DNA of 46,099 nt, taken from NCBI GenBank assembly GCA_017526445.1, contig JAFXRI010000096.1:1-46099 (forward strand), read 5' to 3'. This DNA comes from Ruminococcus sp. Lineage in GTDB: Bacteria > Bacillota > Clostridia > Oscillospirales > Ruminococcaceae. How positions within the stretch are numbered: the stretch's first letter is position 1; every line of letters starts with the position of its first letter. Under the pieces are notes generated by a model. That model was not told the origin of the DNA. It worked only from the letters and a program-made list of their open reading frames with translations, and ran no database searches. This document shows, in pieces, positions 26,877 to 43,117 of this stretch. The translations under genes were made by a program, and so were the position numbers.

Positions 26877-29920
<3,044 letters not shown>

Positions 29921-29941
29921 TCAGATGGGATAATAATTCAA

Positions 29942-29952
29942 GGCAATACCGC
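29942..29952. repeat. Possible fragment of the hairpin repeat left arm
   Basis: GGCAATACCGC is identical to the first 11 bases of the repeat arm, but no matching right arm is close by. It overlaps no gene, lying between asnB and pyrG. It may be a degraded copy or chance. Confidence 0.35.
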
Positions 29953-29959
29953 GTGCGAT

Positions 29960-31543
29960 TCATTCTGCGCTGGCGCCGTAGTTTGAGAGCACCCTTGCTG
30001 AGGGATCACTGACGTTGCAGCCCTCCCAGCTCCTGTTGGGCATCCAGAAGTCCGCGATCATCTCTCCCTGTCCGGGGTAGTATTTTTCAAAGATCTCCCG
30101 GTAGAGGAGGGATTCCTTAGTAAACGGCTGAGCGTGGATATATTTCTGTCTCAAAGTCTCATATTCTTCATCGGTGTAGTAATTCTCGGCATATTCTTTC
30201 AGATAGTTTACGAGGGAGTGTCCCACAGCATCGGAGAAGGCGGCCTTTTCGCGCCAGAGTATGCTCTCGGGAAGGATGCCGTCGGGCTCGAATGCCTTTC
30301 TCAGGAGATACTTGCCCTTGCCGTAGGTGTTGAGCTTCTTTTCGGGATCTATGGCCATGACATACTTCACGAAATCAAGATCGCCGAAGGGCACGCGGGC
30401 TTCGAGAGAGTTTACGGAGATACATCTGTCAGCACGAAGAACGTCGTACATATGCAGCTCATGCACACGCTTCTCGGCTTCCTTCTGGAATTCCTCCGCC
30501 GAGGGGGCGAAGTCGGTGTACTTGTATCCGAACAGCTCGTCGGAGATCTCGCCGGTGAGGATAACGCGGATATCAGTCTGTTCGTGTATCGCCTTGCAGA
30601 CCAGATACATACCGATGCTGGCTCTGATAGTAGTGATGTCGAAGGTCCCCAGCAGTTTTACCACGTCATCGAGGGAATCTATGACATCATCCTTGGTGAT
30701 GACGACCTCGGTATGATCGGAGCCGATGAAATCTGCGGTCTCCCTGGCATATTTAAGGTCGATGGCATCTTCGTTCATTCCGATGGCAAAGGTGCGGATC
30801 GGTCTTGAGGAGAACTTCTGTGCAACGGCGCAGACGAGGGATGAATCCAGTCCTCCCGAGAGCAGGAACCCGACCTTTGCGTCGGCAACAAGGCGCTTCC
30901 TTATGCCGGAGACCAGCTTGTCGTGAATGTTCCTGTATATCTCCTCGTGGGTATCATAGCAGACCTTCCCGGCGTGAGCGATATCGCAGTAGCAGCGGAA
31001 CTCGCCGTCGATATAATAGTGTCCCGGGGGGAAAGGCATTATCTTGTCACAGATGTCCACAAGGTTCTGGGGCTCGCTGGCGAACACGACGGCTCCGTCG
31101 CTGTCATAGCCGTAATAAAGGGGGCGTATGCCGATCGGATCTCTTGCTGCGATGAACTTCCCGCTCATCCCGTCGTAGATCACACAGGCAAACTCCGCAT
31201 CCAGCATAGCGAACATATCGGTGCCGTATTCGTTCCACAGCGGAAGTATGATCTCGCAGTCAGAATCGCTGTTGAAGCGATAGCCTTTGGCTATGAGATC
31301 GTCCCTGAGGCTGGCGAAACCGTAAAGCTCGCCGTTGCATACCACATAGCTCTTCCCCAGTGAAAAGGGCTGCATCCCCTCGGGAGTCAGGCCCATTATC
31401 GACAGCCTGTGGAACCCGAGCAGCCCTTCGCCTACATCAGCGAAGCGCGTACTGTCGGGGCCTCTCGACTTGGTCCTTTCAAAGCATCTTTCCATAAGCT
31501 CTCTGTCGGCCTTAGCCGAACACCAGCCCATAATACAGCACAT
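29960..31543 (-). CDS. asnB: Glutamine-dependent asparagine synthase
   Basis: This 527-residue enzyme converts aspartate to asparagine with ATP and glutamine. The N-terminal glutaminase starts MCCIMGWC, so Cys2 becomes the nucleophile after Met removal; SRGPDS and CNGELYGF follow. The synthetase domain has the PP-loop SGGLDSSLV. The usual MCGI start is MCCI here, as in some clostridial AsnB. The start is the ATG behind GGAGGAATAATT; the further upstream frame has no ribosome binding site. It is the second gene after glnN, so it draws on freshly made glutamine. Confidence 0.95.
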   Translation of the reverse strand: MCCIMGWCSAKADRELMERCFERTKSRGPDSTRFADVGEGLLGFHRLSIMGLTPEGMQPFSLGKSYVVCNGELYGFASLRDDLIAKGYRFNSDSDCEIILPLWNEYGTDMFAMLDAEFACVIYDGMSGKFIAARDPIGIRPLYYGYDSDGAVVFASEPQNLVDICDKIMPFPPGHYYIDGEFRCYCDIAHAGKVCYDTHEEIYRNIHDKLVSGIRKRLVADAKVGFLLSGGLDSSLVCAVAQKFSSRPIRTFAIGMNEDAIDLKYARETADFIGSDHTEVVITKDDVIDSLDDVVKLLGTFDITTIRASIGMYLVCKAIHEQTDIRVILTGEISDELFGYKYTDFAPSAEEFQKEAEKRVHELHMYDVLRADRCISVNSLEARVPFGDLDFVKYVMAIDPEKKLNTYGKGKYLLRKAFEPDGILPESILWREKAAFSDAVGHSLVNYLKEYAENYYTDEEYETLRQKYIHAQPFTKESLLYREIFEKYYPGQGEMIADFWMPNRSWEGCNVSDPSARVLSNYGASAE

Positions 31544-31568
31544 AATTATTCCTCCGATAACAGAACGG

Positions 31569-31590
31569 GGCTGCCGCAATAACGGCAGCC
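31569..31590 (-). promoter_or_regulatory. Intercistronic hairpin between glnN and asnB
   Basis: GGCTGCCG and CGGCAGCC with a 6-base loop. No T-run follows on the minus strand, so partial termination or mRNA processing is more likely than a full stop. Confidence 0.55.
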
Positions 31591-31610
31591 ATAGTTCGTA
31601 TTTTTATTTA

Positions 31611-33707
31611 TCATTTAACTCCGAACAGCAGCTCGTCGTAGGTCGGGAACGGCCAGAACTTCGAGGCGGTGATCGTCTCGGCTTCGTCGCAGGAAGCGCG
31701 GAGCTTTTCCATTACGCCCAGCAGCTCGTCGCGGATGAGGTAGCCTGTCTCGATAACGTTGGGTGCAGACTGGACTTTTTCAAGTGCGGAACCCAGCTCG
31801 TCGAGGCTCTTGTAGGCATCCGATGCAAGCTGAGAGAGACGTCTGACTGTCTCGGTCTCATAAGTGCAGGCCAGGTCTGTTGCAAGAGATTTCTTGGCGT
31901 TGGCGGTCTTGGCTACGAAAGCCGCATACTCCTCGATAGCGGGAAGGATCTCGCGTCTTGCAAGCAGCTCCATGGTATGCGCCTCGATAACGACTGCTTT
32001 GCAATAGTTTTCGAGGGTGATCTCGGTACGGCTGCGAAGTTCGGCTTCGGTGAAGACCTTATGCGAGGTGAGCATCCTGACGTTCTTCTCGTCCATAAGA
32101 TGAGGGATAGCATCCGGTGTGGTGCGGTAGTTGAGCAGGCCCCTTACCTCGGTAGCTTCCTTGATCCAGGCATCGTCGTAACCGTTGCCGTTGAAGATGA
32201 TGCGCTTGTGATCGGTGATGGTCTTCTTTATCATCTCGTGAAGCTTTTCCTCAAAGTTTTCGGCTGTCTCGAGACGGTCGGCATATATCTTCAGGCTCTC
32301 GGCGACAGCAGTGTTGAGCATAATGTTTGCACAAGCGATAGAGTTGGAGGAGCCAAGCATCCTGAACTCAAACTTGTTGCCGGTGAAAGCAAAAGGAGAG
32401 GTGCGGTTCCTGTCTGTGGTATCACGGGTGAATCTGGGAAGGACACTTACGCCCAGCCTCATGGTCTTCTTCTCGATGCCCTCGTAAGGTGTGTCAGTCT
32501 CGATAGCCTTGAGGATACCCTCCAGCTCCTCGCCGAGGAAAATAGAGATAACGGCGGGAGGTGCCTCGTTGGCGCCGAGTCTGTGATCGTTGCCGGCGGT
32601 GGCGACGGAGATACGCAGCAGATCCTGATAATCGTCAACAGCCTTGATAACGGCACAGAGGAACAGCAGGAACTGAGCATTCTCATAGGGTGTGTCACCG
32701 GGAGTAAGGAGGTTTACGCCGGAATCAGTGGAGATCGACCAGTTGTTATGCTTGCCGGAACCGTTCACTCCTGCGAAGGGCTTCTCATGGAGGAGGCATA
32801 CAAGGCCGTGCTTCTTGGCGACCTTCTGCATGATCTCCATTGTCAGCTGGTTATGATCGGTGGCGATATTTGTGGTGGCGTAGATCGGTGCCAGCTCGTG
32901 CTGAGCGGGAGCGACCTCGTTATGCTGTGTCTTGGCAAGGATGCCCAGCTTCCAGAGCTCCTCGTTAAGATCGTTCATATAGGCCTCGACTCTGGGCTTG
33001 ATAACGCCGAAATAGTGGTCATCCAGTTCCTGTCCCTTGGGAGGCTTTGCGCCAAAGAGGGTGCGTCCGGTATAGATAAGGTCCTTTCTCTTATTATAGA
33101 GCTCCTGGGGGATAAGGAAGTATTCCTGCTCAGGGCCGACGGATGTGGAAACGTGCTTTACCTGATCGTTGCCGAAGAGCTTCAGGATACGCAGAGCCTG
33201 TTTGTTGAGGGCCTGCATCGAGCGGAGCAGCGGAGTCTTCTTGTCAAGAGCTTCGCCGCCGTAGGAACAGAAGGCTGTGGGGATGCAAAGAGTCTTGCCC
33301 TTGATGAAAGCATAGGATGTGGGATCCCAGGCTGTATAGCCTCTGGCCTCAAAGGTGGCTCTCAGGCCGCCGGAGGGGAAAGAAGAAGCATCCGGTTCGC
33401 CCTTGATGAGCTCCTTTCCGGAGAAATCCATTATGACTCTGCCGTCGGGGGAGGGAGAGATAAAGCTGTCATGCTTCTCGGCTGTGATCCCGGTCAGGGG
33501 CTGGAACCAGTGAGTATAATGTGTAGCTCCCTGCTCGACTGCCCACTCCTTCATAGCCTGTGCAACTGCTTCGGCCACTGAGGGATCAAGCTTGGTGCCG
33601 AGGTCTATGGTATTTTTCAGCGAATTATAAACTTTAGAAGATAACTTCGATTTCATCACTCTGTCATCAAAGACTTTGCTTGCAAACATTTCGGGTACTG
33701 TGCTCAT
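31611..33707 (-). CDS. glnN: Glutamine synthetase type III
   Basis: This 698-residue enzyme forms glutamine from glutamate and ammonia. The length and [43 protein letters not shown] and GSGKHNNWS are hallmarks of GSIII, the large form found in Bacteroides and ruminococci. The start is the ATG behind GGAGGAAACGATC; the longer open frame has no support. It heads the glnN-asnB-pyrG-purF-dapL operon. The leader carries a promoter, a terminator and two copies of a hexaloop motif, so antitermination control is likely. Confidence 0.97.
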
Positions 33708-33748
33708 GATCGTTTCCTCCGTTTTCATTTTCAATCTTAAAGCAGCAA

Positions 33749-33795
33749 TGTCTCCGGCACCTGAGCTTTCGCCCTGTGCCGGAGACACCGTTGCC
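33749..33795 (-). promoter_or_regulatory. Second leader hairpin of glnN with hexaloop motif
   Basis: On the minus strand GGCAACGGTGTC (33795-33784) can form the hairpin GGC-AACGGT-GTC. It overlaps the 5' arm of a perfect 12-bp stem, TGTCTCCGGCAC/GTGCCGGAGACA (33787-33776 and 33760-33749). No clear T-run follows the stem. The motif matches those in the other nitrogen leaders. Confidence 0.6.
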
Positions 33796-33837
33796 CCCAT
33801 CTAAAATCAGGAAGGAGTCTTCCCCTTTCCTTACACT

Positions 33838-33894
33838 AAAAAAAGACAAGTCCGTCGGAAGACAGCTGAGCTGCTTCCGAGACGTCCTTGCCTC
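33838..33894 (-). promoter_or_regulatory. glnN leader: hexaloop hairpin competing with an intrinsic terminator
   Basis: On the minus strand GAGGC-AAGGAC-GTCTC (33894-33879) forms a 5-bp stem with a six-base loop carrying A at position 1 and G at position 4, as in ANTAR target RNAs. The same bases GGCAAG also pair with CTTGTC (33850-33845) as the outer arm of a long terminator, followed by seven T (33844-33838). The two folds exclude each other, an attenuator layout. It starts 10 bases after the -10 box. Confidence 0.7.
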
Positions 33895-33904
33895 TATGTT
33901 TCGT

Positions 33905-33933
33905 ATTATACACCGCATTGACGGATTTGTCAA
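33905..33933 (-). promoter_or_regulatory. Promoter of the glnN operon
   Basis: On the minus strand, TTGACA (33933-33928), 17 bp and TATAAT (33910-33905). Confidence 0.93.
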
Positions 33934-34005
33934 GCACATTTCCGACAAATATCTGAATATTGGTGTATCAAATCTTGCAAATTCTCACAAATTTGCGCAT
34001 TTTAC

Positions 34006-34034
34006 TTGACAGATATGAATTTTTAAGCTATAAT
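34006..34034 (+). promoter_or_regulatory. Promoter of the split glutamate synthase operon
   Basis: TTGACA (34006-34011), 17 bp and TATAAT (34029-34034). It is divergent from the glnN promoter 72 bases away. Confidence 0.93.
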
Positions 34035-34044
34035 ACTTGCAAAT

Positions 34045-34116
34045 GGGCAATGGCGTTCATTCTTTTGGTGCCACCGGAGCGATTCCGGGCGGTACGAAAG
34101 GGATGTACGCCTTTTT
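34045..34116 (+). promoter_or_regulatory. Glutamate synthase leader: hexaloop hairpin overlapping a terminator
   Basis: GGGC-AATGGC-GTTC (34045-34058) forms a small stem with a six-base loop, A1 and G4. GGCGTTCATTC (34052-34062) overlaps it and pairs with GGATGTACGCC (34101-34111), with one T-T mismatch, to give a terminator before TTTTT. An inner stem CCGGA/UCCGG lies between the arms. The layout matches the glnN and amt leaders. Confidence 0.65.
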
Positions 34117-34138
34117 ATTTTATTAAGGAGTGAGCACC

Positions 34139-35230
34139 ATGAAAAGAGAAGGAGAAGTCCGTATCCCGTCGGGCTGCGCGATAGCGGCTGTTATTTCAAG
34201 GGAGGGCAAGGGCATTACGGGCAACGTCATCTACAATGCGATGAAGCCGATGCACGACCGTTCCAACGGCCTCGGGGGAGGCTTTGCGGCATATGGCATC
34301 TATCCCGAATACAGGGATCTTTTTGCTTTCCACATTTTCTTCGATCACCGTTCTACCCGCAAGGACTGCGAGGCTTATTTAAAGGAGCGCTTCGAGATCG
34401 TCAAGGGAGAACTGATCCCCACCCGCAAGATACCTCAGATCACCGATGAGCCTATAATATGGAGATACTTCTGCAGACCTCTCAGCTCTCAGGTGGCGTC
34501 TGAGCAGGTGGATGAGAACGAGTTCGTTGCACATACCGTTATGAAGATCAACACAGGTATGAAGGGTGCTTACGTCTTTTCCAGCGGAAAGAACATGGGC
34601 TGCTTCAAGGCTGTGGGCTATCCGGAGGATGTGGGACTGTTCTACAGGCTGGAGGAATACGAGGGCTATTCCTGGACGGCACACGGACGCTATCCGACCA
34701 ACACACCGGGCTGGTGGGGAGGAGCTCATCCTTTTTCGCTTCTGGACAGCTCAGTGGTACACAACGGCGAGATCTCCAGCTACGATGCGAACCGCCGCTT
34801 TATAGAGATGTTCGGCTACAAATGTACATTACAGACCGACACCGAGGTCATCACCTACATCCTGGACTATCTGGTAAGAAGGCAGGGACTCACTCTTGAG
34901 GAAGCTGCATCCGTCATTGCAGCGCCCTTCTGGTCCACCATTGCATCCAGGCCGGAGAAGGAAAAGGAAAAGCTGACCTATCTGAGGCAGATCTTCCCGA
35001 GCCTGCTCATTACCGGGCCCTTCTCTATCGTTTACAGCTGGAACGGAGGGCTCATGGCTCTCAATGACCGTCTGAAGCTGCGCTCGATGATAACCGCAGA
35101 GAAGGACGACAAGGTATTCATCGCCAGCGAGGAAGCAGCTGTCAGAGTAATGGAGCCGGAGGCTGAGAACTTCTACGCTCCGGCGGGCGGCGAGCCCGTT
35201 ATAGTTCGTGTCAAGGAGGGCAAATTCTGA
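34139..35230 (+). CDS. Glutamate synthase, glutamine amidotransferase subunit (GltB N-terminal domain homologue)
   Basis: This 363-residue class II glutaminase releases ammonia from glutamine for glutamate synthase. Cys13 in RIPSGCAIAAV is the likely nucleophile after propeptide removal. SWTAHGRYPTNTPGWWGGAHPF and VVHNGEISSYDANRRF shape the glutamine site. In Bacteria with a single long GltB this domain is N-terminal; here it is a separate gene, as in Archaea and some Clostridia. The ATG at 34139 sits behind AAGGAG; a GTG at 34130 is possible but too close. It overlaps the next gene by one base. Confidence 0.92.
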   Translation: MKREGEVRIPSGCAIAAVISREGKGITGNVIYNAMKPMHDRSNGLGGGFAAYGIYPEYRDLFAFHIFFDHRSTRKDCEAYLKERFEIVKGELIPTRKIPQITDEPIIWRYFCRPLSSQVASEQVDENEFVAHTVMKINTGMKGAYVFSSGKNMGCFKAVGYPEDVGLFYRLEEYEGYSWTAHGRYPTNTPGWWGGAHPFSLLDSSVVHNGEISSYDANRRFIEMFGYKCTLQTDTEVITYILDYLVRRQGLTLEEAASVIAAPFWSTIASRPEKEKEKLTYLRQIFPSLLITGPFSIVYSWNGGLMALNDRLKLRSMITAEKDDKVFIASEEAAVRVMEPEAENFYAPAGGEPVIVRVKEGKF

Positions 35231-36735
35231 TGAGAGAGCACTTTATATATCCTGAATTTGAAGTTGTCAGGAACGATAACAGATGCATACAGTGCCGCGT
35301 CTGTGAGAGACAATGTGCCAATGAGGTACACCGCTTCGACACAGATCTGGGACTGATGATCTCCGACGAGACAAAATGTGTGAACTGCCAGCGCTGCATA
35401 TCCCTGTGTCCCACAAGGGCGCTAAAGATAGTCAAGAGCGACTGCCGTCTGCGTGAAAACGCCAACTGGTCGGACGAGACGATCAAGGAGATCTACAAGC
35501 AGGCCAACAGCGGAGGCGTACTGCTGTCGTCCATGGGCAATCCCAAGCCGCTGCCGGTCTATTGGGACAAAATGCTCATAAATGCATCACAAGTGACCAA
35601 TCCGCCTATCGATCCGCTGCGTGAGCCCATGGAGACCAAGGTGTTCTTAGGCAAGAAACCGGACAAGATCCGCCGTGATGAGAACGGCGAGCTCATCACC
35701 GAGACAGCCCCTCAGCTGGAACTGTCAATGCCGGTGATGTTCTCGGCAATGAGCTATGGCTCGATCAGTTACAACGCTCACGCCTCCCTGGCAAGAGCTG
35801 CGACAGAACTGGGCATCTGCTACAACACCGGTGAGGGCGGTCTGCACGAAGACTTCTACATTTACGGCCCCAACACTATCGTTCAGGTAGCGTCGGGACG
35901 TTTCGGAGTACACAAGAACTATCTCGAGGCTGCTGCTGCGGTGGAGATCAAGATGGGACAGGGCGCGAAGCCCGGCATCGGCGGACATCTGCCGGGGGCG
36001 AAGATCGTCGGAGACGTTTCCCGCACGAGGATGATCCCGGAGGGCTCGGATGCTATATCCCCTGCACCGCATCACGACATCTACTCGATAGAGGATCTTA
36101 GACAGCTGGTATTCTCGCTGAAAGAGGCGACGGAATACAAGAAGCCTGTGATCGTAAAGGTAGCGGCGGTGCACAACATCGCAGCTATCGCCAGCGGCAT
36201 CGCTCGCAGCGGAGCGGATATAATCGCAATAGACGGTTTCAGAGGCGGTACGGGAGCTGCTCCAACGCGCATCAGGGACAATGTGGGCATCCCCATAGAG
36301 CTTGCGCTGGCGGCTGTGGACCAGAGACTCAGGGACGAGGGCATCAGGAACAATGTCTCACTGATAGTCGGCGGGAGCGTTCGCTCGGCGGCTGATGTGG
36401 TAAAGGCAGTTGCTCTGGGTGCTGATGCAGTATATGTAGCAACAGCTGCTCTGCTGGCTCTCGGATGTCATCTCTGCCGCACCTGTCAGAGCGGCAAGTG
36501 CAACTGGGGCATCGCCACACAGAATCCGGAGCTGGTCAAGAGACTGAACCCGGACATCGGTTCGAGAAGGCTGGTCAATCTTATGGATGCATGGCGTCAC
36601 GAGATCAAGGAGCTTATGGGCGGTATGGGCATCAACTCCATCGAGAGTCTCAGAGGCAACAGGCTTATGCTGAGAGGCGTCGGACTGACTGCCAAGGAGC
36701 TGGAGATACTGGGTATCTCCCACGCGGGCGAATAA
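35230..36735 (+). CDS. gltB: Glutamate synthase, FMN/Fe-S catalytic subunit (GltB central domain homologue)
   Basis: This 501-residue subunit reduces 2-oxoglutarate plus ammonia to glutamate. Its N-terminus carries two 4Fe-4S motifs: CIQCRVCERQC, then CVNCQRCISLCP. The FMN-binding barrel follows, with MPVMFSAMSYGSIS, NTGEGGLHEDF, KPGIGGHLPG and IIAIDGFRGGTGAAP. The late cluster CHLCRTCQSGKCNWG fits the 3Fe-4S site of glutamate synthase. It starts as TGATG with the previous stop, giving translational coupling. The ammonia arrives from the preceding glutaminase subunit. Confidence 0.95.
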   Translation: MREHFIYPEFEVVRNDNRCIQCRVCERQCANEVHRFDTDLGLMISDETKCVNCQRCISLCPTRALKIVKSDCRLRENANWSDETIKEIYKQANSGGVLLSSMGNPKPLPVYWDKMLINASQVTNPPIDPLREPMETKVFLGKKPDKIRRDENGELITETAPQLELSMPVMFSAMSYGSISYNAHASLARAATELGICYNTGEGGLHEDFYIYGPNTIVQVASGRFGVHKNYLEAAAAVEIKMGQGAKPGIGGHLPGAKIVGDVSRTRMIPEGSDAISPAPHHDIYSIEDLRQLVFSLKEATEYKKPVIVKVAAVHNIAAIASGIARSGADIIAIDGFRGGTGAAPTRIRDNVGIPIELALAAVDQRLRDEGIRNNVSLIVGGSVRSAADVVKAVALGADAVYVATAALLALGCHLCRTCQSGKCNWGIATQNPELVKRLNPDIGSRRLVNLMDAWRHEIKELMGGMGINSIESLRGNRLMLRGVGLTAKELEILGISHAGE

Positions 36736-36748
36736 GGAGGACATCACG

Positions 36749-37180
36749 ATGAAAAGAGTATATGTTAACGAGCAGTGGTGTCTCGGATGCCACCTCTGCG
36801 AATACAACTGCGCATTCGCCAACTCGGGGATCGACGATATGGTCAAGGCGCTGAAGGGCAAGGACATCTTCCCGCGGGTACATATCGAAGACGGAGAGGA
36901 TGGGATACACTTCGCCGTTTCCTGCCGTCACTGCAAGGATCCAATGTGCGTCAAGAGCTGCATCGCAGGCGCTATATCTATAGAGGACGGTGTCGTTAAG
37001 ATCGACAGGGACAAATGCGTGGGCTGTCTGACCTGCGTGCTGGTATGTCCCTACGGGGCTGTAGCTCCGGGACCGAACGGCGCTGCACAGAAGTGCGAGC
37101 TTTGCTTACAGAACAGCTGCGGGGCTCCCGCCTGCGTAACAGGCTGCCCCAACAATGCGATCGTATATGAGGAGAGGTGA
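36749..37180 (+). CDS. Multi-cluster 4Fe-4S ferredoxin subunit
   Basis: This 143-residue electron-transfer protein has four cysteine groups: CLGCHLCEYNC, CRHCKDPMCVKSC, CVGCLTCVLVCP and CELCLQNSCGAPACVTGCP. This is the pattern of HycB/CooF-type ferredoxins that carry several 4Fe-4S clusters. Its place between the FMN subunit and an FAD oxidoreductase suggests that it wires electrons from NAD(P)H to glutamate synthase, replacing the usual GltD. AAGGAGGACATC precedes the ATG. Its end overlaps the start region of the next gene. Confidence 0.92.
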   Translation: MKRVYVNEQWCLGCHLCEYNCAFANSGIDDMVKALKGKDIFPRVHIEDGEDGIHFAVSCRHCKDPMCVKSCIAGAISIEDGVVKIDRDKCVGCLTCVLVCPYGAVAPGPNGAAQKCELCLQNSCGAPACVTGCPNNAIVYEER

Positions 37181-37185
37181 TCGGG

Positions 37186-38421
37186 ATGTCTGAATATGTT
37201 ATCATCGGAAACGGAACGGCAGCTGTGGGCTGCATCGAAGGCATAAGGAGCGCTGACTCCGAAAGCAGCATCACCGTCATCTCGGCGGAGGAGCATCACG
37301 TTTACTCACGCCCGCTGATCTCCTACTATCTGGAGGGCAAGACCGATCTTGAAAAGATGAAGTACCGTCCGGAGGATTTTTATACAAAGAACAATGTAAA
37401 GCTCATCTACGGTAAGGCGGTAAAGTGCGACAGCAAGAAGCAATTCATCACCCTTGCAGACAAGCAGAAGCTGCACTATGACAAGCTGTGCCTGTGCACC
37501 GGATCGTCGCCTTTCGTACCGCCCTTTGAGGGGCTTGACAAAGTAAAGAACAAGTTCAGCTTTATGACTCTTGACGATGCGCTCGCCCTTGAAAAAGCTC
37601 TTGACAAAAAGGCGAAGGTGCTTATCGTGGGAGCGGGACTTATCGGACTTAAATGTGCCGAGGGCATTGCTGAGAGAGTGGGCAGCATCACAGTCTGTGA
37701 TCTTGCAGACAGGGTGCTCTCCTCCATACTCGACAGCAAATGTGCAGCTGTGATGCAGAAGCGTCTCGAAGAACACGGCATCAGCTTCCTGCTGGGAGAC
37801 ACGGCGGTGCGTTTTGAAAAGGACAAGGCTGTTATGAAAAGCGGCAAGGAAGTCAGGTTTGACATCCTTGTGCTGGCAGTGGGCGTCAGAGCTGAGACAG
37901 AGCTTGCCAGGCAGACAGACTGTGAAGTGAACAGGGGCATCGTCATTGACACCTCTATGAAAACGAGCACTGATAGCATATACGCGGCAGGCGACTGTGC
38001 GGAGGGGTATGACAGCTCGATCGGTGCGAACCGTGTGCTGGCGATACTGCCGAACGCTTATATGCAGGGACGCTGCGCAGGCATAAATATGGCGGGCGGC
38101 AGCTCGGTATTCGATGATGCAGTGCCGATGAACTCTATCGGCTTCTTCGGACTGCACTGCGCGACGGCGGGCAGCTATCCTGAGGACGGCGAGGTCTGTG
38201 AGGAACAGGTCTGCGGAGGCATCAGGAGACTGTACATCAAGGACGGAAGGCTTTACGGATATATGCTCATCGGAGACGTGAACAGAGCCGGTATCTACAC
38301 CTCTCTGGTAAGAGAGCAGACCGTGTTTAATGAAGAAGATATAGATAAATTGAAAAAATTTCCGACTCTGGCAATTTTTTCTTATGAAAGCCGTAGAAAA
38401 AAACTCGGAGGTGTGGTATAA
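37186..38421 (+). CDS. FAD/NAD(P)-dependent oxidoreductase subunit
   Basis: This 411-residue flavoprotein is of the pyridine nucleotide-disulphide oxidoreductase fold, close to NADH oxidase/rubredoxin reductase types. The FAD loop is VIIGNGTAAVGCIEG, the NAD loop is VLIVGAGLIGLKCAEG, and the second FAD motif is SIYAAGDCAEG. It most likely feeds electrons through the neighbouring ferredoxin to glutamate synthase. The start is the ATG behind GAGAGGTGATCGGG. A GTG at 37177 has no room for a ribosome binding site. The stop overlaps the next ATG. Confidence 0.92.
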   Translation: MSEYVIIGNGTAAVGCIEGIRSADSESSITVISAEEHHVYSRPLISYYLEGKTDLEKMKYRPEDFYTKNNVKLIYGKAVKCDSKKQFITLADKQKLHYDKLCLCTGSSPFVPPFEGLDKVKNKFSFMTLDDALALEKALDKKAKVLIVGAGLIGLKCAEGIAERVGSITVCDLADRVLSSILDSKCAAVMQKRLEEHGISFLLGDTAVRFEKDKAVMKSGKEVRFDILVLAVGVRAETELARQTDCEVNRGIVIDTSMKTSTDSIYAAGDCAEGYDSSIGANRVLAILPNAYMQGRCAGINMAGGSSVFDDAVPMNSIGFFGLHCATAGSYPEDGEVCEEQVCGGIRRLYIKDGRLYGYMLIGDVNRAGIYTSLVREQTVFNEEDIDKLKKFPTLAIFSYESRRKKLGGVV

Positions 38422-39152
38422 TGAATATCAATGCGACAGGGCTCGACTACAGGGAGCTAAATGAAACGCTCCGCCAGGTCAGGGGCAGCTGTACCATTAC
38501 TGACTGTCTCGGGCAGAGGTTCATTGCAGCAGGCATCTCCGACAAGACGCTTACCATAAGCGGTATCCCCGGAAATGCACTGGGGGCATATCTCAACGGT
38601 GCAAAGATCGAGGTCAAGGGCAATGCTCAGGACGCGGTGGGCGACACTATGAATGACGGGACTATCGTCATCCACGGGAATGTGGGAGATGCTGTGGGCT
38701 ACGCTATGCGCGGCGGCAGGATCTACGTTCAGGGAAATGCGGGATACCGTGCGGGCATACATATGAAGGCCTACAAGGAAAAGCAGCCGGCGCTGGTCAT
38801 CGGCGGGAGAGCGGGAAGCTTTCTCGGTGAATACCAGGCGGGCGGCACGATCATCGTACTGGGTATGGACGGCAGCGGGAAAGACGATCAGCGCCCCATA
38901 GTCAGCAATTTCCCTTGCACGGGGATGCACGGAGGCAAGATGTACCTGCGCTCGGACTGCAAGGGGATACACTTCCCGCATCAGGTACACACACGCCCCG
39001 CCAACAGCGCCGATCTTGACGATATAGCTCATTATCTCAGGCGCTTCTGCTACTACTTCGGGCACAAGCTGGAGGAACTACTGGATCACCCTTTCACCGT
39101 TGTCACACCTGACAGCAGCAACCCGTACAGACAGATGTACGTAGCAAACTGA
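38421..39152 (+). CDS. Glutamate synthase C-terminal GXGXG domain subunit
   Basis: This 243-residue protein is the beta-helix domain that ends classical GltB, here as its own gene. Gly-rich turns repeat: ISGIPGNALGAYLNGA, VKGNAQDAVGDTMNDGT, IHGNVGDAVGYAMRGG and VQGNAGYRAGIHM. The domain forms part of the core and channel of the enzyme rather than a catalytic site. It overlaps the stop of the FAD subunit by one base. All three GltB parts therefore lie in one operon. Confidence 0.93.
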   Translation: MNINATGLDYRELNETLRQVRGSCTITDCLGQRFIAAGISDKTLTISGIPGNALGAYLNGAKIEVKGNAQDAVGDTMNDGTIVIHGNVGDAVGYAMRGGRIYVQGNAGYRAGIHMKAYKEKQPALVIGGRAGSFLGEYQAGGTIIVLGMDGSGKDDQRPIVSNFPCTGMHGGKMYLRSDCKGIHFPHQVHTRPANSADLDDIAHYLRRFCYYFGHKLEELLDHPFTVVTPDSSNPYRQMYVAN

Positions 39153-39159
39153 CCGATAC

Positions 39160-39197
39160 CGGATAGCCTGACGGTCTGACTGACCGCCGGCTGTCCG
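39160..39197 (+). promoter_or_regulatory. Hairpin before glnA
   Basis: CGGATAGCC (39160-39168) and GGCTGTCCG (39189-39197) enclose an inner CGGTC/GACCG stem. There is no T-run, so it may tune expression of glnA within the operon rather than end it. Confidence 0.5.
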
Positions 39198-39228
39198 TTC
39201 TCTGCTATTAAACTAAACGGAGGTCACT

Positions 39229-40437
39229 ATGGATTATACTGCTGAAGAGATAATACAATACTGCTCCGAGGAAGATGTCAAGTTTGTCAGACTGGCTTTC
39301 TGCGATGCTTTCGGAGCACAGAAAAATATATCCGTGATGCCGTCGGAACTGCGGCGGGCTTTTGAGCAGGGCATCGGGTTCGATGCTTCGGCTGTCAAAG
39401 GCTTTGCCAATGAGGCAAAGTCGGATCTGCTGCTTTATCCGGATCCGGACACACTTTCGGTACTCCCCTGGAGGCCGGAGCACGGCCGCGTTGTAAGGAT
39501 GTTCTGCTCGATCAGAGAACCGGGAGGCAGGAACTTTGAGTGCGACACTCGCAGTCTGCTGGAGAAGGCTATCGGGGATGCTGCTGACGAGGGGCTGGAG
39601 TTCTCTTTCGGCTCGGAGCAGGAGTTCTATCTGTTCAAGCTGGATGATAACGGCGTACCCACATCTATCCCTTATGACAGGGCCGGATATATGGACATCG
39701 CCCCAGATGACAGGGGCGAGAACATCAGACGGGAGATCTGCCTGACGCTGGAGCAGATGGGCATAAGCCCCGAAAGCTCCCACCACGAAGAAGGTCCGGG
39801 ACAGAACGAGATAGATTTCCACTATGCCTCGGCAATGAAGGCGGCAGACGATGCTATGGCCTTCCGCACCGTGGTGAAGACAGTCGCTCATGCCAACGGG
39901 CTGTATGCCGACTTCTCTCCCAAGCCGCTGAACGATCAGCCGGGCAACGGCTATCACATCAACCTTTCGGTAAAGGACGACAAGAACCACATCATCCTGC
40001 CATCGGTGATCGCAGGCATCCTCGAGCACATCAGGGACATTACGGTATTCCTGAACCCGACGGAGAACAGCTACAAACGCTTCGGCAGGAATAAGGCTCC
40101 GAAATACATCTCCTGGTCCAGCGAGAACCGTTCTCAGCTGGTGCGCATACCTGCCGCGGAGGGCGAGTACCGGCGCGCCGAACTGCGCTCGCCGGATCCG
40201 ACGGCAAATCCTTATCTGGCCTTTGCGCTTATCATAAGAGCGGGACTGTACGGGTACAAGAATGGGCTGTTCCTGCCGCCTGTTGCAGACATTGATCTGT
40301 TCAGGGCAGACAGCTCCGAGACGGACAAATACGAAAGGCTCCCCGCTTCGCTCGACGAAGCCAAGTCTGCCGCGGCCGCGAGCTGTTTCGTGAAGGAACA
40401 TCTTCCCGGCCGTCTGATAGACATATACTGCAAATAA
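39229..40437 (+). CDS. glnA: Glutamine synthetase, type I
   Basis: This 402-residue enzyme is a second glutamine synthetase in the same island. GSEQEFYLF, the metal-binding HHEEGPGQNEIDFHY, NGYHINLSV and RAELRSPDPTANPYLAFA are GSI signatures. It is shorter than most GSI (about 440-470). It seems to lack the adenylylation-site Tyr context, because the C-terminus is trimmed. The ribosome binding site is CGGAGGTC. It lies between the split glutamate synthase and the ANTAR regulator, and completes a GS-GOGAT cycle. Confidence 0.95.
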   Translation: MDYTAEEIIQYCSEEDVKFVRLAFCDAFGAQKNISVMPSELRRAFEQGIGFDASAVKGFANEAKSDLLLYPDPDTLSVLPWRPEHGRVVRMFCSIREPGGRNFECDTRSLLEKAIGDAADEGLEFSFGSEQEFYLFKLDDNGVPTSIPYDRAGYMDIAPDDRGENIRREICLTLEQMGISPESSHHEEGPGQNEIDFHYASAMKAADDAMAFRTVVKTVAHANGLYADFSPKPLNDQPGNGYHINLSVKDDKNHIILPSVIAGILEHIRDITVFLNPTENSYKRFGRNKAPKYISWSSENRSQLVRIPAAEGEYRRAELRSPDPTANPYLAFALIIRAGLYGYKNGLFLPPVADIDLFRADSSETDKYERLPASLDEAKSAAAASCFVKEHLPGRLIDIYCK

Positions 40438-40452
40438 AGGAGGGCTGTGCCC

Positions 40453-41043
40453 ATGGATCTGAAACAGCGGCAGTACAATCTGCTGATAGTATCGGCACAG
40501 CCGAAGTTCAACGAATCTCTGGCGGAGATGCTCGGTATGCGAAGATACTATGAACATTCGTTTGAAGACAGCATAAGCTCCGCCAGGAGGATACTGAATG
40601 AGCAACACTTTGATATGATCCTGATAAACGCACCGCTGCCTGATGAAGACGGTGTGCGTTTTGCTGTTGACAAGTCTGTGGGAAAATGCTCGGTGCTGCT
40701 CATGGTAAGGAACGAATACTATCCGGAGATCTTTATGAGAGTCTGTCCCTATGGGGTATATACTCTGCCGAAGCCGCCCGCAAGGCAGCTGGTGGCTCAG
40801 GCCTTTGACTGGCTGGAAAGCAGCTGTGAACGTCTCAGAAAGCTGGAAAAGAGGTCTGTGACGCTTGAAGACAAGATGGCTGAGATCAGACTCGTGAACC
40901 GCGCCAAGTGGCTGCTGATCTCCAAAGAAGGGCTCACTGAGGACGAGGCTCATCACCGCATAGAAAAGCTTGCTATGGACAAATGCGTCACCAAGCGTGA
41001 GATCGCTGAGGAGATACTCGGCGTTTACGGCACTACCGCATAA
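40453..41043 (+). CDS. ANTAR-domain RNA-binding response regulator (GlnR/NasT-like antiterminator)
   Basis: This 196-residue protein has an N-terminal receiver-like domain and a C-terminal ANTAR domain. The receiver opens YNLLIVSAQPKFNESL, but the phosphoacceptor position is Asn59 (MILINAPLPDEDGV), so phosphorylation is unlikely. A coiled-coil linker leads to the ANTAR helices VNRAKWLLISKEGLTEDEAHHRI and CVTKREIAEEIL. ANTAR proteins bind RNA hexaloop hairpins and block terminators; a clostridial GlnR of this type controls glutamine genes. The start is the ATG behind GGAGGG. The last codons and stop lie in the left arm of hairpin copy D. Confidence 0.92.
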   Translation: MDLKQRQYNLLIVSAQPKFNESLAEMLGMRRYYEHSFEDSISSARRILNEQHFDMILINAPLPDEDGVRFAVDKSVGKCSVLLMVRNEYYPEIFMRVCPYGVYTLPKPPARQLVAQAFDWLESSCERLRKLEKRSVTLEDKMAEIRLVNRAKWLLISKEGLTEDEAHHRIEKLAMDKCVTKREIAEEILGVYGTTA

Positions 41044-41061
41044 CGCTTGTGCGGTGTTGCC
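41029..41061. repeat. Hairpin repeat family, copy D (minimal, 33 bp)
   Basis: GGCACTACCGCATAA (41029-41043) and TTGTGCGGTGTTGCC (41047-41061) are the two arms of the repeat family with only three bases between them. The left arm encodes the last four residues and TAA stop of the ANTAR gene. The right arm is identical to copies A and B. Confidence 0.75.
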
Positions 41062-41078
41062 TATACTCCCTCACACTC

Positions 41079-41116
41079 AAAAAACAGCACCTCTGCCAAC
41101 CATAGCAGAAGTGCTG
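41079..41116 (-). terminator. Terminator of the amt gene
   Basis: On the minus strand CAGCACTTCTGC and GCAGAGGTGCTG form a 12-bp stem with one mismatch or wobble, followed by TTTTTT. It may also serve the convergent ANTAR gene. Confidence 0.88.
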
Positions 41117-41140
41117 CTTTCAAACTCTGTGTCTGTACGT

Positions 41141-42868
41141 TTACTCGTCCTGGAGGGCTTCGTATCCCTCTTCGCCGGTACGTACCTTGATGACGTTCTC
41201 AACATCGTAGATGAAGATCTTACCGTCGCCGATATGTCCGGTATAGAGTGCCTTCTTGGCAGTCTCGACTACGCTTCTGACAGGCACCTTGCTGACAACT
41301 ATATCGACCTGTACCTTAGGCGTAAGACTGGTCTCGACCTGAACGCCGCGGTAGAACTCGGGGTGGCCCTTCTGAGTGCCGAAGCCCATAACGTGAGATA
41401 CTGTCATACCTGTTATGCCAAGCTTGCTCATAGCGTTTCTCAGCTTGTCGATCTTAGCCTCGCGGCAGATGATCTCGATCTTGGTGAGCTTAGGTCTGCC
41501 CTCATCCACAAGGCTGGGCAGCTTCTGTACGGTGACAGCCTCGGCCTCGGGTGTCTCGCCAAGTACGACTGATGCATCATTGTATTCCTCATAGGTAGTG
41601 TACTTATGTACAGCAGGCATAAAGTCAGGATAAGCGCTGGGGAGACCATGCTCGGAGATATCCAGTCCAAGGATCTCGTCCTCGGCTGAAGTGCGCAGGC
41701 CGTTGGTCTTTTTGATGATCATAAAGGTGACCGTCATCATGACCGCAGTATAGAAAGCTACGGAAGCAAAGCCTGTGAGCTGGAGCCCGAGCTGCTTGAA
41801 CTCGCCGGTATAGAACAGACCGTGAAGGCCTGCGGGAGCATCGGGGTTTGCAAAGAGACCGACTGCAATAGTTCCCCAGATACCGTTTGCACAGTGAACG
41901 CCAACAGCGCCCACGGGATCGTCGATGTGAAGCTTGAGGTCGATAAACTCGACTACCCAGACAACGAGGAAGCCTGATACAAGACCTACGCCTGCTGCAC
42001 CGATAGCGTCAAAGGCATCGGTACCGGCTGTAACTGCAACGAGTCCTGCAAGGGATGCGTTGAGACACATAGAAACATCGGGTTTGCCGTTGCGAATCCA
42101 GGTGAATATCATCGTCACGCAGGTAGCGACTGCGGGTGCGATCGTTGTGGTCATAAAAATGGATGCGAGCTCGGAAACGCTTGTGGCAGCAGCACCGTTG
42201 AAGCCGTACCAGCCCAGCCAGAGGATGAACACACCGAGAGCGCCGAGGGTGATGGAATGTCCGGGGATAGCGTTTACCTTGATGACATTGCCCTTCTCGT
42301 CACGCTCGTATTTACCGAGACGGGGACCAACGAAGATCGCTCCGATGAGGGCTGCGATACCGCCCACCATATGGATAGCGCAGGAGCCGGCGTAATCGTG
42401 GAAGCCCAGCTCAGAGAGCCAGCCGCCGCCCCAGATCCAATGAGCCTCGATGGGGTAAACTATCAGCGAGATGATACCCGAATAGATGCAGTAGCTGGAG
42501 AACTTGGTGCGTCCTGCCATTGATCCGGAAACGATAGTGGCTGTGGTCGCACAGAACACCAGGTTGAAAACGAATGTGGATGCGCCCGTAAAGCTGCCGT
42601 CAGCGGGGCTGGTGATGAACTCCTTGAAGTGAGTGAACATATCCATGTTCGGGAGTCCGATAAGACCGAACAGTGTATCCTCGCCCATCATAATGGTATA
42701 ACCCAGCAGCGAGAAAACGACTGTACCGATACAGAAGTCCATTAGGTTCTTCATAATGATGTTGCCGGCGTTCTTGGCACGGGTGAAGCCTGTCTCCACC
42801 ATTGCAAAGCCTGCCTGCATCCAGAAAACAAGTGCGGCTCCGATCAGAAACCAGAATTCGACTGTCAT
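41141..42868 (-). CDS. amt: Ammonium transporter fused to a C-terminal P-II domain
   Basis: This 575-residue protein joins two partners that are usually separate. Residues about 1-410 are an Amt channel: MQAGFAMVETGFTRAKNAGNI, SYCIYSGIISLIVYPIEAHWIWGGG in two parts, and the pore helix IHMVGGIAALIGA. After a linker, residues 461-575 are a P-II nitrogen sensor: LTKIEIICREAKIDKLRNAM, the T-loop HPEFYRGVQVETSLTPK and the signature TGHIGDGKIFI. A built-in P-II would gate ammonium uptake by 2-oxoglutarate and ATP/ADP. AGAGGG precedes the ATG. The leader has tandem terminators with the hexaloop motif. Confidence 0.95.
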   Translation of the reverse strand: MTVEFWFLIGAALVFWMQAGFAMVETGFTRAKNAGNIIMKNLMDFCIGTVVFSLLGYTIMMGEDTLFGLIGLPNMDMFTHFKEFITSPADGSFTGASTFVFNLVFCATTATIVSGSMAGRTKFSSYCIYSGIISLIVYPIEAHWIWGGGWLSELGFHDYAGSCAIHMVGGIAALIGAIFVGPRLGKYERDEKGNVIKVNAIPGHSITLGALGVFILWLGWYGFNGAAATSVSELASIFMTTTIAPAVATCVTMIFTWIRNGKPDVSMCLNASLAGLVAVTAGTDAFDAIGAAGVGLVSGFLVVWVVEFIDLKLHIDDPVGAVGVHCANGIWGTIAVGLFANPDAPAGLHGLFYTGEFKQLGLQLTGFASVAFYTAVMMTVTFMIIKKTNGLRTSAEDEILGLDISEHGLPSAYPDFMPAVHKYTTYEEYNDASVVLGETPEAEAVTVQKLPSLVDEGRPKLTKIEIICREAKIDKLRNAMSKLGITGMTVSHVMGFGTQKGHPEFYRGVQVETSLTPKVQVDIVVSKVPVRSVVETAKKALYTGHIGDGKIFIYDVENVIKVRTGEEGYEALQDE

Positions 42869-42960
42869 AATAATTCCCTCTTTCGATAATGAAAATAGTT
42901 GTCGGCTATATCATTGTCCGTGTTCATACCGCACCGCCTCCGATCACTTACAAAGGAAAT

Positions 42961-43007
42961 AAAAAAGCGCCTTTCGGGACAGTTACATCCCAAAAGACAC
43001 CATTGCC
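42961..43007 (-). promoter_or_regulatory. amt leader, second hexaloop motif and terminator
   Basis: On the minus strand GGC-AATGGT-GTC (43007-42996) repeats the hexaloop motif. It overlaps GTGTCTTTTGGGA (43000-42988), which pairs along 13 positions, including wobbles, with TCCCGAAAGGCGC (42979-42967). TTTTTT follows. Confidence 0.68.
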
Positions 43008-43026
43008 TTGAAAATATTGATGAAAT

Positions 43027-43080
43027 AAAAAAACAGAGACGGAGCGTGAAGAAATATCTTCATTGACATCCTTGCCTCTG
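43027..43080 (-). promoter_or_regulatory. amt leader, first hexaloop motif and terminator
   Basis: On the minus strand GGC-AAGGAT-GTC (43076-43065) is the hexaloop motif, starting 12 bases after the -10 box. CAGAGGC (43080-43074) overlaps it and pairs with GTCTCTG (43040-43034) as terminator arms, with an inner TGAAGA/TCTTCA stem and seven T after it. Confidence 0.7.
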
Positions 43081-43088
43081 ATGTTTGT

Positions 43089-43117
43089 ATTATACTCCAT
43101 CGTGACCGATATGTCAA
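43089..43117 (-). promoter_or_regulatory. Promoter of the amt gene
   Basis: On the minus strand, TTGACA (43117-43112), 17 bp and TATAAT (43094-43089). Confidence 0.93.

Follow-up and report, generated by a model that had tools for sequence, protein, structure and literature searches.

Putative single-hexaloop ANTAR attenuators at the transcript start of nitrogen assimilation genes in Ruminococcus and related Clostridia

What controls a cluster of nitrogen assimilation genes that carries a short repeated motif in its leaders and a gene for an ANTAR domain protein in its midst? The question is raised by a 46,099-nt stretch of Ruminococcus sp. DNA (here the window), which is contig 25 in a 78% complete draft assembly of 2.14 Mb and encodes glnN, a glutamate synthase (GOGAT) operon and the ammonium transporter gene amt. 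The last two genes of the plus-strand GOGAT-type operon encode a type I glutamine synthetase (GS) and the ANTAR protein. A sequence-only reading of the window had proposed that this protein, encoded at 40453, controls all three units through the motif GGCAAnGnnGTY, and had remarked that the usual target is paired, unlike the one hairpin seen here where the transcript starts; that remark is the important part of it. We consider it likely that the leaders are single-hexaloop ANTAR attenuators, held open by the GS-linked ANTAR protein. They share one anatomy, their hairpin covaries and co-occurs with the protein, no second hexaloop lies close by, and the protein has no phospho-acceptor.

A pattern scan located all five reported motif copies. 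They lie within approximately 660 bases, in two intergenic regions, where 0.011 copies are expected (Poisson P for at least five, approximately 1e-12), and chance recurrence of the 12-mer was rejected on this count. The whole window holds eight matches versus 0.76 expected, and the remaining three (18240, 21244, and 37843) overlap open reading frames (ORFs). The leader elements, with their predicted structures, are as follows.

33905..33910, minus strand: glnN -10 box, TATAAT
33879..33894, minus strand: glnN hexaloop 1, GAGGC-AAGGAC-GUCUC (-6.0 kcal/mol)
33838..33895, minus strand: glnN terminator 1, with U-run, overlapping hexaloop 1 (-30.4 kcal/mol, z -4.8)
33780..33799, minus strand: glnN hexaloop 2, UGGGGGC-AACGGU-GUCUCCG
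33740..33796, minus strand: competing stem over glnN hexaloop 2, without U-run (-40.6 kcal/mol, z -7.9)
34029..34034, plus strand: GOGAT operon -10 box, TATAAT
34042..34061, plus strand: GOGAT hexaloop, AAUGGGC-AAUGGC-GUUCAUU
34052..34116, plus strand: GOGAT terminator, with U-run (-37.3 kcal/mol, z -5.5)
43089..43094, minus strand: amt -10 box, TATAAT
43065..43076, minus strand: amt hexaloop 1, GGC-AAGGAU-GUC, 3-bp stem (-1.6 kcal/mol)
43027..43080, minus strand: amt terminator 1, with U-run (-18.9 kcal/mol, z -4.2)
42994..43009, minus strand: amt hexaloop 2, AAGGC-AAUGGU-GUCUU
42960..43001, minus strand: amt terminator 2, with U-run (-21.9 kcal/mol, z -4.4)

As had been claimed, every copy can form a six-base loop with A at position 1 and G at position 4 (AAGGAC and AACGGT in glnN, AATGGC in GOGAT, AAGGAT and AATGGT in amt). 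The stems measure 5 and 7 bp in glnN, 7 bp in GOGAT, and 3 and 5 bp in amt; the folding claim is thus qualified at the first amt copy. The first copy of each leader begins 12 (glnN), 12 (amt), or 11 (GOGAT) bases after a perfect TATAAT, matching the spacing of 11 to 12 bases noted before, and the loop A1 follows at 15, 15, and 14 bases. Folding revealed that each of the five hairpins and a far more stable stem that competes with it (z -4.2 to -7.9) are mutually exclusive. The earlier statement that every copy overlaps a terminator or stem therefore holds for a competing stem in all five cases and for a U-run in four; the exception, the second glnN stem, is no clear terminator because the U-run is lacking.

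This anatomy suggests the following mechanism. The leaders would act as transcription attenuators in which the nascent RNA, a few tens of bases past its start, folds by default into an intrinsic terminator. Alternatively, the first approximately 20 nt could form a small hairpin with an A1-A2-n-G4 six-base loop, the 3' half of which would belong to the 5' arm of the terminator. Once the GS-linked ANTAR protein bound the single hexaloop, the terminator would be blocked, and polymerase would read through into glnN, amt, the GOGAT-GS-ANTAR operon, and other genes concerned with glutamine. In some leaders, two of these units follow one another, and each has a competing stem. We infer that the putative binding and antitermination would go along with induction under nitrogen limitation.

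For 68 of 82 elements, an alignment (A3) was made; the 14 left out were three asnB (asparagine synthase) leaders of congeners and eleven elements with an unusual -10 distance or sequence. In the aligned elements, 86.0% of the helix cells were paired, compared to 27 to 54% when the helix was slid, and 85 double changes were counted in helix cells, compared to 34 in shuffles. The pair next to the closing pair was G-U in 36, G-C in 31, and A-U in 1 element, and the third pair was A-U in 38, G-C in 29, and G-U in 1. The core used to find most rows of A3 already prescribes A1, A2, G4, the closing pair, and which type of pair follows it; since the rows were picked with that core, these positions are no evidence in A3, and the outer pairs serve instead.

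For the same reason, we applied a letter-free rule, which accepts any hairpin with a 6-nt loop and at least 4 bp right after a -10-like box and overlapping a terminator. Among 55 glnN leaders, it returned 46 six-nt-loop hairpins, with A1 in 41, A2 in 43, and G4 in 44 of them. Other loop sizes gave 1 (3 nt), 0 (5 nt), 3 (7 nt), and 3 (9 nt) candidates. The rule also gave 15 candidates with 4-nt loops and 29 with 8-nt loops, of which 5 and 21, respectively, are centered on an A1/G4 hexaloop, that is, on the same hairpin with another reading of the loop, while the remaining 10 and 8 are not. The terminator form was more stable than the hairpin in 81 of the 82 leaders (medians, -27.0 versus -5.2 kcal/mol). 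These data bear on the view that the 5' hairpin is a side effect of how the terminator is built, or serves to stabilize the transcript, with termination being constitutive. Indeed, the 5' arm of the terminator constrains the 3' half of the hairpin. This view does not account for a loop that is nearly always A-A-n-G in the letter-free tally, for covariation between the two stem halves, or for the ANTAR-negative glnN leaders described below, which mostly lack the hairpin, and we regard it as very improbable.

Putative attenuators of this kind are widespread. In the genome from which the window comes, the -10-plus-core pattern had four exact matches versus none for the reversed pattern, and the fourth precedes asnB; a like leader stands in three congeners before a protein with the same first residues as the asnB product. 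When up to 3 mismatches were allowed, the scan of this genome returned 100 matches, as did the reversed control, and so was uninformative. In 396 genomes of the family, the exact pattern yielded 91 matches in 68 genomes, compared to 31 control matches in 29 genomes (counted by hand), so roughly a third of the matches may be due to chance. A covariance-model search in related genomes, which had been proposed as a check, was also made. The initial model, R1, found the element in 22 of 197 family genomes and was replaced by a broader one, R2, which was built mostly from ANTAR-positive leaders. At E ≤ 0.05, R2 had five matches in the genome of the window, each upstream of a nitrogen gene (glnN, GOGAT, amt, asnB, and, on contig 26, a second glnN). 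It matched 115 of 245 genomes of the order at E ≤ 0.1 and 34 of 148 genomes of the class at E ≤ 0.05. In 80 named loci, 73 matches were obtained at E ≤ 0.01, and 63 of these precede genes of the types found in the window (GlnN, 30; glutamine amidotransferase [GATase], 27; Amt-PII, 2; GS, 2; PyrG, 1; GXGXG, 1). Carriers of the element among these loci include Suipraeoptans intestinalis 68-1-5 (L353) and Mediterraneibacter glycyrrhizinilyticus (L362).

Among 20 regions from relatives, many place the element before glnN, the GATase-GOGAT operon, amt, and genes named pyrG, gdhA, and purF from their first residues only. The leader versions of GOGAT (AAAUGAGC-AAAGGC-GUUCAUUU) and glnN (AAAGGC-AARGGC-GUCUUU) in these relatives have a loop of the same kind and a stem that differs yet pairs. 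Elsewhere in the family, frequent forms are ACAGC-AAAGGC-GCUGU for the glnN leader and AUGAAC-AAAGGC-GUUCAU for the GATase leader. With a wider core, in which the closing pair may be A-U, 28 of 39 GATase leaders examined (of 42) were seen to carry a gene-directed hexaloop followed by a T-run.

Are these ordinary ANTAR targets in which a second hexaloop was overlooked? The described target models are dual (PMC3369931, PMC8164766), and some of the leaders do hold two hexaloops. In 125 elements with a -10 box (of 128 examined), a second A1/G4 hexaloop started at most 20 nt downstream in 2, while 1.2 were expected from flanks shuffled with single-base content only; the remaining 123 agree with the remark on a single hairpin. 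An upstream partner would hardly find room, because the hairpin starts at a median of 10 nt past the end of the -10 box (5 to 95% range, 6 to 15; maximum, 20). Within 170 nt, a second match was present in 12 of 82 elements: one at 16 nt, which is one of the two chance-level cases, and the others at 58 to 127 nt without fixed spacing. The classic dual motif was accordingly rejected, and an overlooked second hairpin, whether for recruitment or for antitermination, is quite unlikely. Of the features of the ANTAR-target RNA family, the A1/G4 hexaloop on a stem of at least 3 bp is present, as are overlap and mutual exclusion with a terminator, except that the second glnN unit has no U-run and the asnB terminator is doubtful. 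Two hexaloops joined by a linker of approximately 2 to 25 nt, as defined in PMC8164766, were not found in the elements at the close spacing examined. The element is very probably an ANTAR attenuator, yet it lacks one defining feature of the family, the paired hexaloops.

Known RNA elements of other kinds were also considered. At the gathering score, the only Rfam matches in the whole window were two tRNAs, and a permissive threshold gave three matches in 33700-34140, all far below that score; a described Rfam element was rejected for lack of a leader match at the gathering score. A riboswitch or leader peptide was set aside without a test, on size alone, since a hairpin of approximately 20 nt is too small for a usual aptamer.

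A profile for the GS-linked ANTAR protein matched 124 of the 245 order genomes at E ≤ 1e-20. At the R2 threshold of E ≤ 0.1, both were present in 94 genomes, the motif only in 21, the protein only in 30, and neither in 100 (p 7e-21, which counts related genomes as independent). At E ≤ 0.005, the corresponding numbers were 73, 8, 51, and 113; a genome for which no E-value had been typed was counted as passing the stricter thresholds, which leaves the E ≤ 0.1 table unaffected. Furthermore, a fixed rule (-10 box, A1/G4 hexaloop, and overlapping terminator) was passed by 39 of 55 ANTAR-positive versus 2 of 21 ANTAR-negative glnN leaders (Fisher p 1.3e-6), sampled from 85 and 34 family genomes, respectively; the contrast is not clean, because many ANTAR-negative genomes carry a more distant glnN paralogue. 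Relatives that have the genes and no motif would speak against the sequence-only reading, and this comparison mostly favors it. Together with the order-wide co-occurrence, it lends computational support to the proposal that the protein encoded at 40453 controls all three units.

Another factor could act on real attenuators, for example a distant ANTAR protein encoded elsewhere in the genome or some RNA binder of unrelated type. The genome does have a second ANTAR gene, and some motif-bearing genomes have no GS-linked ANTAR protein. The co-occurrence with the GS-linked protein, the position of its gene inside the regulated operon, and the A1/G4 loop all point the other way, and we consider another factor unlikely. 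The second gene lies on contig 59 (L002 1471-2046), and its neighbors resemble genes for a PP2C-type phosphatase and an AAA ATPase, as judged from translations only.

Several observations weigh against control by the GS-linked protein through single hexaloops. Of the 115 motif-positive genomes, 21 have no GS-type ANTAR match. When the 8 motif-only genomes at E ≤ 0.005 were rechecked with Pfam PF03861, 5 had some ANTAR gene and 3 had none; likewise, PF03861 detected no ANTAR gene in G035, G052, and G072, which had one R1 match and two rule matches. One of these has a contig end inside the operon, and the rest may be draft gaps or real. Conversely, 30 of the 124 ANTAR-positive genomes lack an R2 match, 11 of the 39 GATase leaders lack a hexaloop, and 16 of the 55 ANTAR-positive glnN leaders fail the fixed rule, including that of the window, the terminator of which is bulged. 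The first amt hairpin has a stem of only 3 bp, and the asnB leader has no convincing terminator. Finally, EutV, as published, needs two close hexaloops (PMC8934654, PMC3369931): mutating either loop strongly cut induction, as did changing the linker from its natural 5 to 12 nt to 3 or 14 nt (PMC3369931), and lengthening the linker by 20 nt abolished antitermination in vitro (PMC8934654). According to the 2022 EutV structure paper, the dimer must contact each of the two hexaloops to prevent termination. The same paper allows single sites where a moving polymerase sets no time limit, points to the additional hexaloop of EutX RNA and to mycobacterial targets that sometimes depart from the dual motif, and calls for bioinformatic work on single hexaloops (PMC8934654).

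The asnB-type leaders (L083 2691-2770, L084, L088, and L090) have a hexaloop on a 4-bp stem and a very small possible terminator, so their mechanism may differ. More distant relatives have hexaloop-terminator units within operons as well, in the interval from glnN to amt (L291 997, L294 561, L295 3112, L307 1655, and L310 1857).

How might a GS-linked ANTAR protein receive its signal? The genes concerned are arranged as follows (assignments from ORFs and Pfam, with the sensor role of GS being putative).

26877..33707, minus strand: glnN (GS III), then asparagine synthase, CTP synthase, and a PurF-like protein, co-directional
34139..39152, plus strand: GOGAT operon, with class-II GATase, glutamate synthase core, 4Fe-4S ferredoxin-like protein, pyridine-nucleotide oxidoreductase, and GXGXG subunit
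39229..40437, plus strand: type I GS, directly upstream of the ANTAR gene; putative sensor partner
40453..41043, plus strand: ANTAR regulator with a degenerate receiver domain
41141..42868, minus strand: ammonium transporter (amt) with a C-terminal P-II domain

The regulator has a C-terminal ANTAR domain (PF03861, 4.9e-17, over the cut-off), while Response_reg stays below the Pfam cut-off. In 19 aligned proteins, the column of the receiver phospho-acceptor Asp holds N in 17 and T in 2, so the Asp that characterizes a phosphorylation-dependent response regulator of the EutV type occurs in none. Met172 and Tyr164 of EutV, its key RNA contacts (PMC8934654), align to Met175 and His167, each invariant in the 19 proteins (a numbering offset of two was worked out by hand). 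The putative binding of the leaders by this protein is suggested by these conserved contact residues and the co-occurrence described above. In 67 of 68 named loci with enough sequence, a GS gene ends at most 600 nt upstream of the ANTAR gene, and GOGAT lies within 9 kb upstream in 43 of the 68. Since the receiver Asp is absent, GS adjoins ANTAR in nearly all loci, and AmiC and NasS offer a precedent, we suggest that GS itself may pass a glutamine signal to the ANTAR protein; that the adjacent GS rather than a kinase signals to it is less certain than the binding. The alignment of the window GS with the best-matching solved GS I stops at residue 404 of 442; the window enzyme has a shorter C-terminus, and PGNGYH where the solved enzyme has NGSGMH.

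The closest named records to this genome are Ruminococcus and Clostridia metagenome-assembled genomes, several of them from rumen samples. The asparagine synthase, CTP synthase, and PurF-like protein downstream of glnN are all glutamine users; some relatives have a separate hexaloop leader before a pyrG- or purF-like gene. The Amt protein is a transporter fused to its own regulator (Pfam, 5.3e-113 for the transporter and 3.1e-25 for P-II). Elsewhere in the window, the protein encoded at 18880-21273 has a TIR domain (Pfam TIR_2, 1.5e-20) and a long, repetitive C-terminal region, which is MORN-like by eye only and had no Pfam MORN matches at E ≤ 1e-5.

ANTAR control of clostridial nitrogen assimilation is already known in outline. 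Like the EutV/eutP-type system of Enterococcus faecalis, the leaders combine an ANTAR protein with A1/G4 hexaloops that lie inside terminator stems before metabolic operons. Unlike that system, they have one hexaloop per terminator instead of P1 and P2, have no recruitment hairpin, stand at the transcript start, and go with a regulator that has no phospho-acceptor. In AmiC-AmiR and NasS-NasT, an ANTAR protein also works with a separate sensor protein, and AmiR has a pseudo-receiver; here, the putative partner is a glutamine synthetase. Work on nitR in C. saccharobutylicum reportedly exists. A GS/GOGAT cluster with an ANTAR gene and proposed ammonia-sensitive antitermination is cited for nitR of C. 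acetobutylicum, and a like role was proposed for C. thermocellum (Clo1313_2030-2036); for these nitR-type systems, no RNA target is described in the accessible part of that source (PMC4676874), and the target defined here is single and stands before several operons. Nitrogen ANTAR regulons were predicted in 2012 (PMC3369931, PMC3369936), including attenuators across the nitrogen operons of Desulfotomaculum and Pelobacter, with at least 13 in one organism (PMC3369931). They were found with a dual-hairpin model, which by definition was not made to report single-hexaloop elements. The EutX and mycobacterial proposals resemble our elements in taking a single A/G4-type hexaloop as a possible ANTAR site, and differ in that they are meant for situations in which no moving polymerase imposes a time limit, not for stand-alone terminator switches (PMC8934654). 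In a literature search whose coverage was without most subscription journals, supplements, and the 2012 target tables, we recognized no description of single-hexaloop nitrogen leaders. As far as this search reaches, what is new is an architecture with a single hexaloop where the transcript starts, together with the covariation and the breadth of this element.

The leaders provide many candidate single-hexaloop switches that would act against a moving polymerase, and the open EutV question becomes directly testable. They also point to a way in which many gut and rumen Clostridia may regulate ammonia assimilation. A further-reaching proposal, to which we give somewhat less than an even chance, is that Clostridia-wide ANTAR attenuators use one hexaloop, without a recruitment hairpin, at the extreme 5' end, with a co-encoded GS that senses glutamine and holds the ANTAR protein or lets it go. 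If such a class-wide single-hexaloop family is real, the two-hexaloop rule would be a property of EutV-like systems and not of ANTAR antitermination generally.

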